Positions 1,077 to 12,442 of a stretch of 26,453 nucleotides of DNA are shown in pieces (positions within the stretch are counted from its first letter, which is position 1; every line of letters begins with the position of its first letter). Under the pieces are notes generated by a model, which worked only from the letters and a program-made list of their open reading frames with translations, did not search any database and had not been told where the DNA came from. Source of the stretch: a virus; IMG/VR virus record IMGVR_UViG_3300010389_000107, positions 1 to 26,453 of that record; one strand, written 5' to 3'. The translations under genes and the position numbers were made by a program.

Positions 1077-1814
1077 TTATCCCTCTTTTTTCTTCTTTAT
1101 AAAACCTAATTTAAAATTGTTTGGCTGTTGTCCTGGATAAGTAAATAGGTTAGTTTTTCCATCATTATACCATTTTCTTCCAATACAAGAATTACCAGGT
1201 TTATTTTCTTTTAATTCCATTTTTATATCTTTATAGCCATATTCTTGTAAATCATTTTTTACTATTCTATGACGAATAGCGCTCTCAGTCAAGTTAGTAT
1301 TCGCTCTTATTTCTTCTGCCAATTCTTTTTTCATGGAAAAAACTTTTTTTGTTCCATCTTCATATTCTACAAATACTTTTTTTGCTGTATGATTTTTTTG
1401 AGGTGCTTCTCTCATGGGGTTATTTTCTAACATTCTTCTTCTTGCTTTTGCTCTCGAATTATTTGTTTTTCCAGGGTTGCTTGCAGGATCTTGTTTTGCT
1501 TGCCATTTCTTAAAATCTGAAAAATTGTTTTTTATTGTTTCAACCATTCTTGAAGTCAATTTTCTATTTTCGTTAGGTGCTCTTAACATGCATAAAAAAC
1601 CATAATGTATTTTTGAAATATTAGGATATATTTTTGTTAAAATCCAATGTGCTATAAAATGTTCTCTAACTGTTAGTTTTATCAAATTATCTTTTTCGTC
1701 AGTTCCGCCCAAGCATCTTGGGATTATATGATGTATTTCGTATCCCCTTTCTTTTATAAGCTCTCTTGTCTTTCTTGTTTCTATTAATTTATCATAAAGT
1801 TTTTGATAGTTCAT
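1077..1814 (-). CDS. HNH homing endonuclease inserted between nrdA and nrdB
   Basis: A freestanding HNH endonuclease of 245 aa. The HNH core covers residues 25-60: YEIHHIIPR with His28 and His29, then GGTDEKDNL with Asn43, then REHFIAHW with His52 and His56. This is the beta-beta-alpha-metal fold that nicks or cuts DNA. Residues about 100-135 are basic and Asn/Arg-rich (NPGK, NNPMRE), like NUMOD3-type DNA-binding repeats. Residues about 145-195 resemble a helix-turn-helix element, and the tail KWYNDGKTNLF...PG...LGF is a module often seen at the C-terminus of phage homing endonucleases. It has its own AAAGGAG ribosome site and a candidate late promoter upstream (1832-1844). Its position, splitting two ribonucleotide reductase genes, parallels mobE in T4-like phages. 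It is a selfish element rather than part of dNTP synthesis; its cut site is probably in the neighbouring nrd sequence of phages lacking it (inference). Confidence 0.92.
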   Translation of the reverse strand: MNYQKLYDKLIETRKTRELIKERGYEIHHIIPRCLGGTDEKDNLIKLTVREHFIAHWILTKIYPNISKIHYGFLCMLRAPNENRKLTSRMVETIKNNFSDFKKWQAKQDPASNPGKTNNSRAKARRRMLENNPMREAPQKNHTAKKVFVEYEDGTKKVFSMKKELAEEIRANTNLTESAIRHRIVKNDLQEYGYKDIKMELKENKPGNSCIGRKWYNDGKTNLFTYPGQQPNNFKLGFIKKKKEG

Positions 1815-6661: not shown

Positions 6662-7801
6662 TTATAGATTTTGGCTAACTTTATCTAAACTATCTCCTGT
6701 ATCGTAAAACTCGCTTGCATCGCCAGTTCTATCATCGAACTTTCTGACAACTTCTTCATCAACCAATTCCATAATACGATTACGGAACTTCTCTTCCTTC
6801 ATTTTTTCAGTCCACTCAACAGTCCTAAATTTTTCTTCAGTTCCATCTGAAAAGTTTAGTGTATTCCAAGCTCCTGTTGAAAGATGTGGTGAACCTTTTA
6901 GAGCCTCAAAAAGAGATTCGTCGTCAAGAACACCTGTTTCTTCTCCCCACAATATTTTGAACTCACAAGTGCGTCCCTGTGAACCAAAACGGCTCTTCTC
7001 CAATCTTGCCTTAACAAGAGAACCAGTTCGATATCCTTTGTCATCATAAACAAAACTATCTTTTGCCTTGCTTCCTGTAAGCCAAATACGAAGACTATAA
7101 GCATATGCTAGAGCCTTACCGCCTGGAGTGAAGAACTTCTGTGATTGTGTCATATACTTAGGATTCCCATCTGCACCAATATTCAATTTTAGCTGATTAA
7201 GAATCAATAAGGTTGATTGACTTTGAGCAATAGGGATGATCAATTTCGACAATCCTTTTGAAAGAATCCTTGGCTTAACTGCCATTGATGATTGAGGATT
7301 AAAATCGCCTTCAATATCACTGGTAGTTGGAGTTAAAGCCATTGAATCCCAGATGAAAAGAAATTGCTGATCTCCTGTTTTCAACAGATCTTCAATAAGC
7401 TCTAGTGTCTTTTCTACACTAACAGCTTGAACATAAAGGAAGTCATCTAAATCACATCCCATTTTCTCTAAGAACTCTGGACTGATTGATGATTCGCTGT
7501 CTAGATATACAGGAGTAATACCCATTTTCTGAGCATTTACGGCAATTTGAGCGGCCATGTAACTTTTGCCTGTTGCCTCTTCACCTGCTAACTCAATTAC
7601 TTTTCCAACTGGAAGTCCTGTTCGTTTTCCACGACAGATAATTGAATCCAACCAAGTTGAACCTGTTGGAATCCATTGTTTTACTTCTGTTGGATTATCT
7701 TCTTTTAGACTATGAACAATGTTCATGCCTGCTTTTTTGTTAAGCATCGATTGCAGATCGCGCACCGATAGCTTACCAGTTTTTTCTGGTTGCTTTTTCA
7801 T
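6662..7801 (-). CDS. uvsX: UvsX/RecA-type recombinase
   Basis: A strand-exchange ATPase of 379 aa that coats single-stranded DNA and drives homologous pairing, recombination-dependent replication and repair. Walker A GEEATGKS is at residues 73-80, the catalytic acidic segment YLDSESS at 99-105 and Walker B FLFIWDS at 147-153. The stretch NQLKLNIGADGNPKYMTQSQKFFTPGG is cut here to its key parts: NQLK before DNA loop 2 and TPGGKAL after it, as in RecA. The C-terminus is acidic. I take the ATG at 7801 because an AGGAG site stands just before it. A longer frame from GTG at 7837 would start inside the terminator at 7828-7866. Transcription must therefore come mainly by read-through from ssb. The nearest relatives are T4 UvsX (about 390 aa) and RecA; the symbol is by family. 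Confidence 0.93.
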   Translation of the reverse strand: MKKQPEKTGKLSVRDLQSMLNKKAGMNIVHSLKEDNPTEVKQWIPTGSTWLDSIICRGKRTGLPVGKVIELAGEEATGKSYMAAQIAVNAQKMGITPVYLDSESSISPEFLEKMGCDLDDFLYVQAVSVEKTLELIEDLLKTGDQQFLFIWDSMALTPTTSDIEGDFNPQSSMAVKPRILSKGLSKLIIPIAQSQSTLLILNQLKLNIGADGNPKYMTQSQKFFTPGGKALAYAYSLRIWLTGSKAKDSFVYDDKGYRTGSLVKARLEKSRFGSQGRTCEFKILWGEETGVLDDESLFEALKGSPHLSTGAWNTLNFSDGTEEKFRTVEWTEKMKEEKFRNRIMELVDEEVVRKFDDRTGDASEFYDTGDSLDKVSQNL

Positions 7802-7827
7802 ATTTAATTTTCTCCTATTATTCCGAT

Positions 7828-7866
7828 AAAAAAACACCGGTCAAAACCAAAGATCTCAACCGGTGT
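7828..7866 (-). terminator. Intrinsic terminator between ssb and uvsX
   Basis: On the minus strand an 8-bp GC-rich stem, ACACCGGT paired with ACCGGTGT, encloses a 17-base loop and is followed directly by a run of T (7828-7833). It stands 33 bases after the ssb stop and 27 bases before the uvsX start, with no room for a separate promoter between. It is likely an intentionally leaky terminator that sets a high ssb to recombinase ratio. Confidence 0.85.
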
Positions 7867-7898: not shown

Positions 7899-8639
7899 TT
7901 AATCTAAAAGTGAATTTAAAGCCTGATCAATACTGGAGGATTCTGATTCTTTTGCTCCATATTTTTCAGTTTCTTCTTTTTCTTCACCGTCATCTGCAAA
8001 GTAAGCATCAAGCAAAGCTCGAACCTCTTCGCTGGTTCGTCGTTTATGGAGTTTATCAAAGTCAGGAATACTATCCAACAATTCCTTACACTCTTCATCT
8101 CCAATATCTTCACAAAGCATAGAACTACGACGCTTAAATGTTAGAGAAGTCTCTGGATATAGTTTACCTGCTGTCTTCTCATATCGAAGATCAATATCTA
8201 CACCATTCTCTTGATCTGTAATATCTCCGTAGTCAGGATTCAATACAGTCTCCAAAAGAGTTTGGTATACTGTCTTTGAATAGCCCCAAACACGAGCACC
8301 TTCTCCCTCTTCACCTCGAACTAGAACTGGTGAAAAGAAGCGTTGCTTACGCACAAGCTTTCGTGCCATTTCCTTGCTTTCATCATCTCCATCATTATAA
8401 AGCTTAGAAACAAAATCACATACAGCGCACTCTTCACCAAAGTTGTGCTTTGGACATAGCACACTCTCATTATTTAAACCATAATGAAAGAAATAAGATT
8501 TAAAAGGATCTCCGTCTTCTGTTGGAAGAATACGAATTGTTTGTGTTCCAGTTTGTGGTTTCCAGAACTTTGCTAGTTGTCCACCTTTACCTTTCAAGGT
8601 ATTCAATTTGTTGCGCATTTTACTAATATCAATAGCCAT
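7899..8639 (-). CDS. Single-stranded DNA-binding protein, T4 gp32-like
   Basis: A gp32-type protein of 246 aa that coats single-stranded DNA during replication and recombination. The basic N-terminus (SKMRNKLNTLKGKGG) resembles the cooperativity segment of gp32. The zinc knuckle is Cys62-x2-His65-x5-Cys71-x2-Cys74 in CPKHNFGEECAVC. An OB-fold core follows (ARVWGYSKTVYQTLLE, near 110-130), and the tail is very acidic (DDGEEKEETE) and ends SSSIDQALNSLLD, the kind of tail that recruits partner proteins. I chose the ATG at 8639, which has CGGAGAAAA before it. The longer frame back to 8729 would overlap the promoter and has no ribosome site. It is monocistronic in design: its own strong promoter, a structured leader and a terminator after it. 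T4 gp32 is 301 aa. Confidence 0.92.
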   Translation of the reverse strand: MAIDISKMRNKLNTLKGKGGQLAKFWKPQTGTQTIRILPTEDGDPFKSYFFHYGLNNESVLCPKHNFGEECAVCDFVSKLYNDGDDESKEMARKLVRKQRFFSPVLVRGEEGEGARVWGYSKTVYQTLLETVLNPDYGDITDQENGVDIDLRYEKTAGKLYPETSLTFKRRSSMLCEDIGDEECKELLDSIPDFDKLHKRRTSEEVRALLDAYFADDGEEKEETEKYGAKESESSSIDQALNSLLD

Positions 8640-8700
8640 TGTTTTTTCTCCGTTACACCCTTCTCGGGCGAGTTGTTGTTGGGATCTTGCGATCACTTGC
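8640..8700 (-). promoter_or_regulatory. Structured leader of the ssb mRNA, possible autoregulatory site
   Basis: The expected transcript begins near 8694 and its leader of about 55 bases is richer in G and C than its surroundings. It can form GATC-GCAA-GATC, a small stem with a GNRA tetraloop, then CGCCC-GAGAA-GGGTG, a 5-bp stem with one wobble pair, ending shortly before the GGAG ribosome site. T4 gp32 is known to repress its own translation by binding a structured leader. A similar role here is inference. Confidence 0.4.
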
Positions 8701-8729
8701 ATTCTAGCACAGATCGTTTGACTTGTCAA
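8701..8729 (-). promoter_or_regulatory. Strong sigma70-type promoter of ssb
   Basis: The minus strand has TTGACA (8724-8729), a 17-base spacer and TAGAAT (8701-8706) preceded by TGC, an extended -10. The -35 box forms half of an inverted repeat TTGAC-AA-GTCAA (8718-8729), a possible operator for a repressor. The arrangement matches the second promoter at 6611-6639. The gap between the tubulin-like gene and ssb holds little else. Confidence 0.88.
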
Positions 8730-8744
8730 GCGACCCGAAGTTGA

Positions 8745-9554
8745 TCATACAGAATTCTGAACTATGTGAGTTGTGAACTCTATAAAACCATACTTATCTG
8801 TTTGATTTGATTCGAATATAGCAAATGTTTTTGCTGTCTCTTCTTCGTTATTTAAAATTTTATTTTTTATATTTTGTAATAATTTACCATCTTTTTTTAT
8901 ATCTTCTTTGGAAAAAGAAAAGTAAAATCTTTGCTTGGTTATATGATTCATGTTAAAAAATGGTTTATTACCATTTTCCATATCATATAAACCAATAGTG
9001 CAAATTCTGTCTATCTCATTTATATCTTCTTTTGTTTCGAATAAAGGTTTTGAATTTTTAAAATACATGATGCTATGAAAAGTATAGCAAAATAATTCAT
9101 TTAATTTTTGATAATACTGGTCTAGTGGTATATCATCTAATAGGGATTCAAGATTGGAATTATTAACTAAATAAACTTTCTCAAGTAGACCTGAACGAGC
9201 ATATTCTTGTAAGACATTGGTAACAATCTTTTGTTGTAGTTTTCCTGTAGAGGATAGCAAACTTTCATCTGTATTAAAACAGACAACACTTATTTTACTA
9301 CTCTTAATTTTTTCTAATACTCTAAGGGTTAAGCCAGATATATTACCTGAAGCAGAGAGAAAAACAAAAACATCCTCAGAAGTGCTGGATAATAGCTTGC
9401 CAAGACTGGGACAATTTTTTTCATATTCTTCTGGATTCTTTTGTTTTTTAACATTTATTCCTTCGTCTATCTCTAGAACTTTATATTGAGAATTTTTCCC
9501 TAATTCTCTTACCAGGCCACATCCAGTATTACCAATACCAATTAAACTAATCAT
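8745..9554 (-). CDS. Divergent tubulin/FtsZ-like protein
   Basis: A protein of 269 aa whose layout follows the FtsZ/tubulin GTPase fold. Residues 2-15 (ISLIGIGNTGCGLV) form a strand and glycine-rich turn like the first nucleotide loop. Residues 61-92 (strand, SASGNISG, helix, strand ISVVCFN) fall where the GGGTGSG loop and next helix and strand lie, but the loop is degraded. Residues 100-165 (long helix, then VYLVNNSNLESLL, then a helix) closely follow the FtsZ segment that reads VIPNDxLL. DINEIDRICTIG (177-188) sits at the T7-loop position, and a C-terminal domain with RFYFSFSKEDI follows. The gene overlaps the MazG-like gene and precedes ssb. Phage tubulins such as PhuZ position DNA or form filaments. 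With its weak G-loop this one may bind nucleotide poorly. The assignment comes from pattern only; a Rossmann-like protein of another family is the main alternative. Confidence 0.5.
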   Translation of the reverse strand: MISLIGIGNTGCGLVRELGKNSQYKVLEIDEGINVKKQKNPEEYEKNCPSLGKLLSSTSEDVFVFLSASGNISGLTLRVLEKIKSSKISVVCFNTDESLLSSTGKLQQKIVTNVLQEYARSGLLEKVYLVNNSNLESLLDDIPLDQYYQKLNELFCYTFHSIMYFKNSKPLFETKEDINEIDRICTIGLYDMENGNKPFFNMNHITKQRFYFSFSKEDIKKDGKLLQNIKNKILNNEEETAKTFAIFESNQTDKYGFIEFTTHIVQNSV

Positions 9555-9855
9555 CTTGCTCCTTTATGAAATATCTGCCCCAATAAAGACCCAGTTTCTC
9601 CTGTCTTTCTTCTATTACATCGCTTAACTTACTTGTTCCTAAAGATACTTGAAGCCAATCTATTAATTCAACTAACTCTGCTAAATTTTGAATTGATTTA
9701 GTCATTTCTAATAAATCAATTTCGCTTCTTATTTTAGAAATGATTGCCTGAAAGAAATCTTCATCTGAAGAAAGAGAAACTATATCTACTTCTTTTTCTT
9801 TCACCTTATCAAAGGCATTCATTAATTCTTTTGCCACATTATCTCTTATAAGCAT
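9547..9855 (-). CDS. MazG-like / all-alpha NTP pyrophosphatase
   Basis: A small all-helical protein of 102 aa. It opens MLIRDNVAKELM, like the L-V-R-D-K-I-P start of house-cleaning NTP pyrophosphatases and phosphoribosyl-ATP pyrophosphohydrolase relatives. It continues with a helix carrying SKIRSEIDLLEM (residues 41-52), then NLAELVELIDWLQ (57-69, the place of the family's EELADVLEVI helix), and ends with EERQEKLGLYWGRYFI (83-98), matching the family's K-x3-RGGFxxRI tail. The acidic residues on the first two helices would hold Mg2+. Enzymes of this family hydrolyse non-canonical or excess NTPs. It overlaps the polymerase stop (TAATG) and the tubulin-like start, so all three are translated together; sanitising the nucleotide pool for the adjacent polymerase is a fair inference. 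The substrate is unknown. Confidence 0.65.
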   Translation of the reverse strand: MLIRDNVAKELMNAFDKVKEKEVDIVSLSSDEDFFQAIISKIRSEIDLLEMTKSIQNLAELVELIDWLQVSLGTSKLSDVIEERQEKLGLYWGRYFIKEQDD

Positions 9856-11030
9856 TATAATTTCCTTAATTGTCCGTAGTCTTTACCTGCTGAAATATTA
9901 ACAGGAAATGTTCCTAATTTGGTTTTAGCAAAAGTAGAAAGTATAATATTAATTAGTTTTTTATCTTCTTTTGCAAGATCAATAACAACACTATCATGAA
10001 CTAAAAAGCTAATAAAACTCTTTTTATCTTTTAGTATTTTATTTATTTTTGATACTTGATCTAAAAATAATTCAGTAGTACTACTTTGTATTAAGTAATT
10101 TAAACTATGAAATTGATCTGATTCTATTTTTCTTCCATATAAACTAGTGATTATACGACCATCGTATTTTTGTTCCATCAATTTGTTAAGCCCAAAATAA
10201 TTTTCGTATTTTTTTGTATCAATTTTCTTGGAACCATACAACCAAGAAAATATTTCTTTCTTTGCTTCTTCTCTTGTAATTCCCAATCTCTCTGCATTCC
10301 ATTCATGGATATCGTTTTTTGGTTGCTCCTCTCCTGATAAGCCAAGTAGGACTCTCACTTCTGCTGCGTTGTAATCCAATTCAACAAAAAGATCGTTTGT
10401 TGGTTTGATTATTGAACGGTATTTACTATCCAAATTAAGAATAGGAAATGTCTTAGGATTAGTTGTAAGCCTTCCTGTCTTGGACCCAAACAAGTTGTAG
10501 CTTACATTGTGTTTGGCTTCTCCTAATCTATTTAAGAGAGTTCTAGCCCTATTATCGTGCCTGTTTTCGTTTAAGATCGACAAGTCAATATTGAGCTTTT
10601 TATTAGAGATAGAATTTAAGATTTTTTCTGTCTCTAATAACAAATTATAATTGACTGGTTTTTCGTTGTTTTCCAATACCCAATCAATTATCCTGGTTTT
10701 GATCTCGCACAACTCCAAAAGAAATTGTTCTGGAACGAGATCGAAAAAACAATTTTCATCCAAACTGACTTTTGCTGTGACAAACGATTTATGATAAGAA
10801 GATAATTTTTTTGTGTATTTCTCCCATTCCTCATTTAAATGTGGGGGGCAAACTTCACTCATGGTTTTACCGCCAACATACAATGAGGCATAGACCACAT
10901 TTCTATCACTCAAATACTCGGCATACTTCCAAGTTTTCGTTAGGTTTTCTGGTAGTTTGTCGTAATGGAGCTTGCCTTGGTGATAAATTCCTTTACACCA
11001 ATCTTTGTTATCAAGTGTTACAAAAGTCAA
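9855..11030 (-). CDS. Family A (Pol I-like) DNA polymerase, compact form without exonuclease domains
   Basis: The phage DNA polymerase, 391 aa, made almost only of the palm-fingers-thumb unit. SKTGRLTT (183-190) is the conserved TGRLSS block. Motif A is ELDYNAAEVRVLLG (217-230, Asp219 and Glu224). Motif B is REEAKKEIFSWLYG (253-266, Arg253, Lys257 or 258, Phe261, Tyr265). NYLIQSSTTELF (311-322) and motif C LVHDSVV (343-349) follow. Motif C reads His-Asp-Ser where most relatives have His-Asp-Glu; the metal-binding Asp346 is kept. The first 100 residues are not recognisable and there is no room for a 3'-5' proofreading or 5' nuclease domain. The start codon is TTG at 11030, five bases after GAGG; no in-frame ATG exists before residue 57. 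It begins eight bases after the end of the virion operon and heads the replication block. Confidence 0.92.
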   Translation of the reverse strand: MTFVTLDNKDWCKGIYHQGKLHYDKLPENLTKTWKYAEYLSDRNVVYASLYVGGKTMSEVCPPHLNEEWEKYTKKLSSYHKSFVTAKVSLDENCFFDLVPEQFLLELCEIKTRIIDWVLENNEKPVNYNLLLETEKILNSISNKKLNIDLSILNENRHDNRARTLLNRLGEAKHNVSYNLFGSKTGRLTTNPKTFPILNLDSKYRSIIKPTNDLFVELDYNAAEVRVLLGLSGEEQPKNDIHEWNAERLGITREEAKKEIFSWLYGSKKIDTKKYENYFGLNKLMEQKYDGRIITSLYGRKIESDQFHSLNYLIQSSTTELFLDQVSKINKILKDKKSFISFLVHDSVVIDLAKEDKKLINIILSTFAKTKLGTFPVNISAGKDYGQLRKL

Positions 11031-11038
11031 CTTTTCCT

Positions 11039-12442
11039 CTATAGCTTGAAGTTCGTGTTTTTTCTCTTAGAGATCTCCTTGTTGTTGATCTCTCCCTGAA
11101 GATACACCATCGCTGCGGAAATGTCAACCCTCTTGGCAAGATTACTGGTTTTTTCTACAATATCTAAAAACTTTCTCTGGGACCAATTACAATTAGCTTC
11201 TCTGCCTTTAATGAAAACATATAACTTTACCCAACTTTGCGTAATTTTTTCTTGAACAAATAAGTCTAAATTTATTACAGGTCTTTCATATATTTTTTTT
11301 ATTGTTGAAAATCTATTTTCATTTTTTTTAACTTCTAATTTTTCATAATATGGATCGTATTCTACAAAAGAATTATACATTTTTCCAATATATCTTTTTA
11401 AATCATAAAAATCATTATCATTAACAATATTATAGTAAAAAACACCACCAATACCATCTATAAGATTTTTAAATAAATCATAATCTTTTAATCTTTCTTT
11501 ACAATCTTCATAATTGTCTTCGCAATCAAAAAAATTTACTTCTTCGCTTAGTATTCCCTCTTCTACTAATCGCTTAACTCTTTGATTATAATAATATTTC
11601 ATTCTTGGAGAAGTCACATCTGCAATTAGTTGCCATGGGCAATCTTTATTTATAATAAATCCTCTTTCTTTTACATAATCCATATAGCAAGAAAAATAAT
11701 CATCATTTATAAATTTTTGAAATTTAAATTCATCATCATTAACATCTGCATCAAGAAGATCTATAACTAGTCCTGATGTTTTCGTTGGACAAGATCTGGA
11801 ATAAACAAAAGAGCTTTTTGTAAAGACTCGTGAAGGAGTAATCACATCGATAAAATCAGCAAATACTTTAATAAAAGTATCAACATCATATATATCTTTG
11901 CTTCTTTTATATATATCAATATAATCTAACAAATAACTATAATTTTGATCTGAATAAGACAAGTAAAGGGAACTAGTTTTTTCGACTCCTTTTTTAGGAG
12001 ACAGAGAATTTAATATACTGCCTTTTGGAACTCTATTCCTAACAATAAAAAGCTGTAAATCAAGTGAGAAATCTTCATAAGCATCAGCTACGAAATCTAA
12101 AACATAAACGGGATCTTCAGAAGTTCCTATATTAGATAAAATAGAATCTTTTGGATATATAGACATCAATTCGCTATTAACTCTACCGTAATGCTGGTGA
12201 TTCATAAAAAATGAATAGGGTTCTTTTTTATCTGTTGTTTCTAGTAACAAATTAGAAGAATTGGGAATATCTATAGCAGAAGGAACTGTCCCTCCAACAA
12301 ATTCTTCATATGCTTGGGTTTGATATATGTATTCTTGTATATATTTTTCTTTTGTTGAACTAGAAAATTTCTTTTTCGGGCCGGCCTCTATTAGTTCATC
12401 TGTTATAATTTTATCTCTTTTTGAAAAATCAAATTTTCTCAT
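11039..12442 (-). CDS. Putative virion-associated protein of unknown function (467 aa)
   Basis: Not firmly recognised. The protein is soluble-looking, rich in Tyr, Asp, Asn and Lys, and has no signal peptide or membrane segment. A mid-region block (residues about 200-300) with DVITPSRVFTKSSFVYSR and CPWQLIADVTSPRMKYYY has the look of a domain I associate with large-phage structural proteins of unknown role, but no database match is claimed. A second half with paired acidic and aromatic motifs (CEDNYEDCKERLKDYD, DGIGGVFYYN) follows. The ATG overlaps the stop of the 867-aa hub-like gene by one base (TAATG), so it is the last gene of the tail and baseplate block and is probably a baseplate or tail-tip component. 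A weak promoter candidate for the polymerase lies inside its 3' end. Confidence 0.6.
   Translation of the reverse strand: MRKFDFSKRDKIITDELIEAGPKKKFSSSTKEKYIQEYIYQTQAYEEFVGGTVPSAIDIPNSSNLLLETTDKKEPYSFFMNHQHYGRVNSELMSIYPKDSILSNIGTSEDPVYVLDFVADAYEDFSLDLQLFIVRNRVPKGSILNSLSPKKGVEKTSSLYLSYSDQNYSYLLDYIDIYKRSKDIYDVDTFIKVFADFIDVITPSRVFTKSSFVYSRSCPTKTSGLVIDLLDADVNDDEFKFQKFINDDYFSCYMDYVKERGFIINKDCPWQLIADVTSPRMKYYYNQRVKRLVEEGILSEEVNFFDCEDNYEDCKERLKDYDLFKNLIDGIGGVFYYNIVNDNDFYDLKRYIGKMYNSFVEYDPYYEKLEVKKNENRFSTIKKIYERPVINLDLFVQEKITQSWVKLYVFIKGREANCNWSQRKFLDIVEKTSNLAKRVDISAAMVYLQGEINNKEISKRKNTNFKL
11099..11127 (-). promoter_or_regulatory. Possible sigma70 promoter for the polymerase operon
   Basis: The minus strand holds a perfect TTGACA (11122-11127), a 17-base spacer and TATCTT (11099-11104, four of six -10 matches), about 65 bases before the polymerase TTG start. 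It lies inside the coding sequence of the preceding late gene. An early promoter is expected here because the polymerase block should not wait for late transcription. Chance occurrence in coding DNA cannot be excluded. Confidence 0.35.

Follow-up and report, generated by a model that had tools for sequence, protein, structure and literature searches.

Proteins of the tubulin superfamily form cytoskeletal filaments that serve in cell division, DNA segregation and spindle-like positioning. Phage tubulins are already known (PMC3678025, PMC7824862): PhuZ and the TubZ of phiKZ carry a catalytic aspartate in loop T7 (PMC3678025), and jumbo phages hold two distinct FtsZ/tubulin representatives (PMC7824862). 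Our literature searches, with bioRxiv and most subscription papers outside their reach, returned no tubulin-fold protein beside a phage polymerase. We examined a gene that the initial annotation had described as a divergent tubulin/FtsZ-like protein in a replication cluster, a description that two confident predicted structures and a strict association with the polymerase and gp32 genes now support. We refer to its product as mini-tubulin.

The window, which is the whole stretch of DNA analyzed (26,453 bases; virus record IMGVR_UViG_3300010389_000107), is only a fragment of a phage genome. The mini-tubulin gene and its neighbors are arranged as follows:

6662 to 7837, minus strand: UvsX/RecA-type recombinase (PF00154, phrog_97)
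7899 to 8729, minus strand: gp32-type single-strand-binding protein (PF08804, E 2e-12; phrog_1192)
8701 to 8729, minus strand: sigma-70-like site TTGACA-17-TAGAAT in the gap between mini-tubulin and gp32 (consensus match only)
8745 to 9554, minus strand: mini-tubulin gene (P0001), 269 aa, complete two-domain tubulin/FtsZ fold (ORF and predicted structure)
9547 to 9855, minus strand: ORF of 102 aa between polymerase and mini-tubulin, without a family in Pfam or PHROGs
9855 to 11030, minus strand: PolA-type DNA polymerase, 391 aa, polymerase domain (PF00476, E 6.4e-10)

The annotated ORF at 8745-9554 matches exactly, reading from an ATG with AAAGGAG directly 5' of it, and its translation contains the peptides that had been quoted: GIGNTGCG (residues 5-12), SASGNISG (67-74), VYLVNNSNLESLL (about 127-139) and DINEID (177-182). 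It overlaps the 102-aa ORF by 8 nt, and the 102-aa and polymerase ORFs have one base in common. On the other side gp32 comes next, so the gene does stand just before ssb. The MazG identity given to the 102-aa neighbor was rejected: no MazG is listed among its Pfam or PHROG matches, and the strongest of the Pfam matches, Thioredoxin_8 (E 0.0024), falls short of the cut-off. The gp32 ORF as listed begins at TTG, the likelier start being an ATG near 8639, and gp32 may have its own promoter at 8701-8729, judged by a consensus match of 11/12 positions with a TG preceding the second hexamer; the region holds four sigma-70-like sites, fewer than the 7.3 that shuffled sequences contain on average. Further T4-like genes on the minus strand of the window encode a tail sheath protein, a 5'-3' exonuclease and a DnaB-type helicase.

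Sequence searches place the protein in no described family. Pfam and PHROGs gave no family for the window protein, and the 76 family members that we compared with them drew scattered weak matches only. PF00091, with a curated cut-off of 33 bits, matches nothing in the window at E<=10 and only one protein among the 76 members (L030, E 0.058, 14.1 bits). No tubulin-family match was found in the PDB by sequence or by profile. Membership of PhuZ or TubZ, which the initial annotation had raised, finds no backing at this level (no phrog_4733 match for the window protein at E<=1), and the suggested profile-profile link to FtsZ reaches an hhalign probability of only 4%. A first pattern scan with the single window protein found no relative, and the GenBank phage collection returned none for the window protein or for a main-clade member. 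We reached the family through the polymerase instead: one relative locus came first, in which a protein of 31% identity occupies the equivalent position, then 64 polymerase loci, and a scan of IMG/VR with the protein itself gave 182 confirmed relatives, of which the best 80 were used.

The gene is present in 142 of 143 sequences examined, a set that includes the window twice (as window and as L001); the one exception, L061, ends within its polymerase match. Merging six duplicate loci leaves 137 contigs, among which near-identical ones may remain, and 136 of these contain the gene. The polymerase lies upstream of mini-tubulin in 136/136 contigs, and gp32 lies at most 1.5 kb downstream in all 116 contigs with more than 600 nt downstream. 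Because 64 loci had been retrieved by way of the polymerase, this linkage is judged more fairly on the 80 that the protein scan retrieved. A 4-nt overlap between the polymerase and mini-tubulin genes is seen in most loci. The relatives share just 23-39% identity with the window protein. In the tree that protein forms a long branch paired with a second one (L068), and its exact place is unsure. The mini-tubulin gene is more than a chance ORF: it is conserved and under purifying selection in close pairs (median dN/dS 0.115 over 27 pairs, an approximate value with dS near saturation). The phages that carry the gene form an uncultured, T4-like lineage with contractile tails and a PolA-type polymerase, represented by many IMG/VR contigs. 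One genome match, L144:5514-10873, is a short run of phage-lineage genes within a WOR-3 MAG scaffold, with unrelated genes around it and 200 N in the locus. It is likely a binning or scaffolding join, and for these reasons WOR-3 was set aside as a host.

The structure prediction and structural comparison that the initial annotation had proposed give an FtsZ/TubZ/CetZ-type fold throughout the chain. An AlphaFold2 model of the window protein, built from the 76-sequence alignment A3, has a pLDDT of 93.6 and a pTM of 0.91. In a Foldseek search of the PDB, FtsZ and TubZ proteins account for all of the 50 best matches listed for this model, with TMq 0.64-0.71 and a best E of 1.1e-11. VIA-align superposes it on CetZ (Z 23.6, rmsd 2.9, 247 aligned residues), TubZ (4ei7; Z 22.5, rmsd 3.5, 266 aligned), FtsZ (2r6r; Z 22.3, rmsd 3.5, 259 aligned) and tubulin (Z about 21), with matches spanning residues 1-269. 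A second model, headed by main-clade member L074 and built from the 56 sequences of alignment A7, has a pLDDT of 92.5; its 50 listed Foldseek matches are again all FtsZ or TubZ (best TubZ, E 1.4e-13), and it aligns with CetZ at Z 24.1 (rmsd 4.0, 265 aligned). The best viral structural match of mini-tubulin is A0A6J5RW92 (E 5.8e-9, TMq 0.74), named 'FtsZ Cell division GTPase', from an uncultured Caudovirales phage. PhuZ is not among the 50 matches listed per Foldseek or VIA search for either model, an absence that excludes nothing. Both models contain a GTPase domain, the central helix H7 and a C-terminal domain, and DSSP recovers the tubulin/FtsZ core order that had been read from the sequence (S1-T1-H1-S2-...-T4-H4-S5-H5-S6-H6-H7-C-terminal domain). 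The predicted fold is thus solid for two distant members of the family.

We then located the nucleotide pocket and active-site loops; their registers rest on sequence alignment, element order and conservation:

9513 to 9545, minus strand: T1-type nucleotide loop, residues 4-14 (LIGIGNTGCGL); G6 in 75/76 rows, G8 in 76/76
9333 to 9356, minus strand: T4 (G-box) equivalent, residues 67-74 (SASGNISG), from alignment and element order
9189 to 9209, minus strand: family signature at the end of H5, residues 116-122 (QEYARSG); L115, Q116, Y118, R120 and S121 invariant
9159 to 9161, minus strand: N132, T6 asparagine equivalent to the FtsZ guanine contact; 72/76 rows
9099 to 9113, minus strand: H7 pair Y148-x3-N152, aromatic and Asn of the guanine pocket, from alignment
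9006 to 9056, minus strand: T7-equivalent stretch, residues 167-183, with no NxDxxD and no H8 before S7 (alignment and DSSP)

Mini-tubulin keeps the GxG of T1, and its other phosphate loops are altered. In the main clade and the bulk of the family the T4 equivalent reads GSSxSSNY, and most basal rows have G-x-G-x-I-S-G (GGGGTISG in L030, GGSGTISG, AGSGQISG); none of these forms, nor that of the window, fits the canonical signature GGGTG[ST]G, basal ones such as GGGGTISG coming nearest. The chain from S2 to S4 is shorter than in FtsZ, so that the T2-T3 region is cut down, as judged by DSSP of the two models against the FtsZ topology, which also gives the place of H8. Neither the T7 motif NxDxxD/E nor helix H8 was found, the former in residues 167-183 of the 76-row alignment and the latter between H7 and S7 of both models. 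An acid at residue 180 (E or D) is present in 62/76 rows and could serve as a remote T7-like acid. The weak G-loop that the initial annotation had noticed, and a form that probably does not self-activate, agree with this motif analysis, whereas the annotation's further suggestion of a decoy for host FtsZ found no positive evidence.

The base-binding side of the pocket is kept. The residues expected to contact guanine in FtsZ and tubulin, namely T6 Asn, H7 aromatic and H7 Asn/Asp, are all present in the inferred register: [YFW]148 occurs in 72/76 rows, N152 in 73/76, and N132-[YFW]148-N152 together in 71/76. The variants H-Y-N and N-H-N occur in one row each, and the trio is lost in the divergent rows L008, L062 and L068. 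N132 and N152 are among the 33 of 269 columns that reach 71/76; the invariant residues are G8, Y24, L77, L80, L115, Q116, Y118, R120, S121 and Q266. As in mini-tubulin, FtsZ has the Asn, the aromatic and the Asn/Asp at its guanine positions (N165, F182 and N/D186 in E. coli numbering; 9/9, 8/9 and 9/9 of nine rows), and the docking results of PMC10020519 list FtsZ Asn166, Phe183 and Asp187 as ligand contacts.

Set beside the described systems, mini-tubulin shares the two-domain, whole-chain fold of bacterial and archaeal FtsZ, but it lacks the GGGTGTG box, NxDxxD, H8 and the long C-terminal tail, falls below PF00091 detection in the window, and is encoded in a phage replication cluster. Archaeal CetZ is the best VIA match of both models at about 11-15% identity, although the active-site loops of mini-tubulin are altered, and Z gaps of 1 to 2 over the other families do not amount to special kinship. 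It also has the fold of the plasmid and jumbo-phage TubZ/PhuZ proteins and is phage-borne like them, yet it is shorter, has no recognizable T7 Asp and does not match PHROG 4733. No gene seen here indicates the nucleus-forming lineage.

A second tubulin is encoded by some of the same phages. In 5/9 large mini-tubulin records, PF00091 detects a second, longer protein over its cut-off. Two loci of this second tubulin are:

L155:1297-2445, plus strand: canonical-looking phage tubulin, PF00091 at or over cut-off
L158:1036-2082, minus strand: canonical-looking phage tubulin, PF00091 at or over cut-off

This canonical phage tubulin (13 sequences aligned, A6) keeps T1, T4 (GGGGGTGS) and T7 (FDSKD), has the guanine trio N225, Y/F242 and N246 in 13/13 rows, and belongs to the tubulin superfamily by profile as well (97.4% against FtsZ, E 1.2e-11). 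It is far better conserved than mini-tubulin: 11 of the 12 other A6 rows are 81-90% identical to L155, and L158 is 64% identical. In L155 the gene adjoins a gp46/SbcC-like ORF (phrog_77), which it follows. We found the canonical gene in 9/46 mini-tubulin records, two of them cut at the contig end, and mini-tubulin in 4 of 20 canonical-tubulin contigs tested (20 of 66), one of which was already counted, so that 12 records carry both. In the 8 records for which the distance was worked out, the canonical gene lies about 35-46 kb upstream of mini-tubulin on the same strand. In each of the 16 other canonical contigs tested, the sequence downstream of that gene ends before 40 kb. For two of the contigs, at about 36 and 39.5 kb, it reaches into the observed span, and contig ends do not wholly account for these two. 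PF00091 found nothing in three long records with mini-tubulin (158, 162 and 204 kb), while 13/14 control genomes were positive; an A6 search of the same three was also empty, which by itself shows nothing. The tree separates the nine rows whose records carry the canonical gene from the three whose records lack it. No canonical tubulin is present in the window, which is, however, a fragment and whose protein sits on a long branch. Unlike the canonical protein, mini-tubulin departs from the T4 and T7 motifs, and a comparison of the two profiles matches T1 only (probability 0.9%); an origin of the two tubulins by duplication is neither supported nor contradicted by this profile comparison.

What might such a protein do? 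With somewhat better than even confidence, we take mini-tubulin to be a replisome-associated tubulin-fold protein, probably without self-activating filament GTPase activity, a function that we infer. It would be a core part of the phage DNA-replication gene cluster and would most likely act in or at the replisome beside the polymerase and gp32, as a monomer or as a capping or adaptor subunit, bearing in mind that gene adjacency is no proof of physical contact. In most relatives it is probably made in step with the polymerase, by translational coupling, because of the 4-nt gene overlap. The linkage, the likely coupled translation and the presence of the gene without a canonical tubulin together point to a replication job needing no canonical-type filament. 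Guanine nucleotide binding, present or ancestral, is probable in view of the retained base-contact trio. With an altered T2-T3 and T4 and no T7-H8 catalytic face, mini-tubulin is not expected to activate its own GTPase and treadmill as FtsZ or PhuZ does, nor to show cytomotive polymerization. This combination suggests a nucleotide that would be held with no FtsZ-like switching or self-activation.

Several other readings share part of this evidence. A polymerizing PhuZ/TubZ-like tubulin, whose GTP-dependent filaments would place or move phage DNA from an unusual active site, could draw on the whole-chain fold, the retained guanine trio and the acid at residue 180. We consider it distinctly unlikely, given the shortened T2-T3, the degenerate T4 and the absence of the T7 signature and H8 in both models and the family alignment; in addition, 12 records carry a separate canonical tubulin, and its 13 aligned sequences keep T1, T4 and T7. 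Full repurposing, with no nucleotide role left, would make the protein either a subunit of the PolA-type polymerase, structural or for processivity, or a loading factor. It would explain the strict polymerase and gp32 linkage and the invariant L115, Q116, Y118, R120 and S121 at the end of H5, which lie outside the canonical phosphate loops. The gp59 loader (PF08993) is also unmatched in 9/9 large records, a weak negative, as the control genomes held no T4-like phage. Yet the base-pocket trio ranks with the most strongly conserved positions, and clamp-loader-like matches in 6/9 large records suggest that the usual clamp system may exist and argue against mini-tubulin simply replacing it, with the sliding clamp PF02916 at 0/9 in the same records, a result weakened likewise by the control set. 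We regard full repurposing as rather unlikely.

The remaining alternatives fare worse. Phage inhibitors of FtsZ are known in general, lambda Kil for example, and mini-tubulin has its fold in common with FtsZ, so that a decoy blocking host division during infection is conceivable. Every contig examined nevertheless has the gene within the replication cluster, its relatives are just 23-39% identical to the window protein, and the protein is without the T7-H8 face used in FtsZ subunit pairing, which a mimic of a conserved host protein would be expected to keep; we find this reading highly improbable. Almost no credence is left for an unrelated Rossmann-fold protein of the dehydrogenase or ParA type that resembles tubulin by chance, the outcome that the initial annotation had named as refuting its proposal. 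Weak Pfam matches to NAD-binding families lean that way (F420_oxidored, E 0.21, in the window protein; TrkA_N in 4/76 members, best 3.1e-5), but both domains of the two models match tubulin/FtsZ along the whole chain at Z 21-24, and the Foldseek matches listed contain nothing else. This contradicts such an identity, and the refuting outcome, an unrelated Rossmann fold lacking the C-terminal domain, did not arise. A broader version of the replisome-associated reading covers both proteins of the phages that encode a canonical tubulin as well as mini-tubulin, found in one branch. Here the tubulin fold would be a standing replisome part: where the canonical tubulin, encoded upstream, is present, it would make a filament, and the degenerate protein, made with the polymerase, would cap or link to it, so that a phage cytoskeleton would hold or move the forks, and in the deeper branch it would act as a replisome subunit only. 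We offer this scheme tentatively and think it more probably wrong than right by a wide measure.

Two things are new within the searches made: a distinct family, of minimal fold and with a degenerate switch, that has a fixed place between polymerase and gp32, and the occurrence alongside it, in some of these phages, of a second tubulin. A complete predicted tubulin fold is tied to a polymerase and a single-strand-binding protein, with no exception seen. If it acts at the replisome, a cytoskeletal fold would be linked to DNA synthesis and would provide a testable tubulin with a lost switch. Those members of the lineage that also encode the canonical tubulin merit testing as a two-tubulin phage system. 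The family also illustrates that whole tubulin families can escape sequence profiles.

The surrounding genes have features of their own. At just 391 aa, the PolA-type polymerase (9855-11030, minus strand) matches the polymerase domain only, and Pfam names no proofreading exonuclease domain among the nine cluster proteins scanned. In phage RM378, PolA is split into separate genes. An ORF of 400-470 aa lies immediately 5' of the polymerase in most loci (window 11039-12442, minus strand; L002:4808-6004), the window copy being assigned to neither a Pfam nor a PHROG family. An ORF of 102-107 aa separates polymerase and mini-tubulin in the window and in L008, L009, L029, L034 and L054. Finally, between two window ORFs that we take to be NrdA-like and NrdB-like lies an ORF at 1077-1814 (minus strand) whose start, YEIHHIIPRCLGG, looks HNH-like by eye, and which probably encodes a homing endonuclease.
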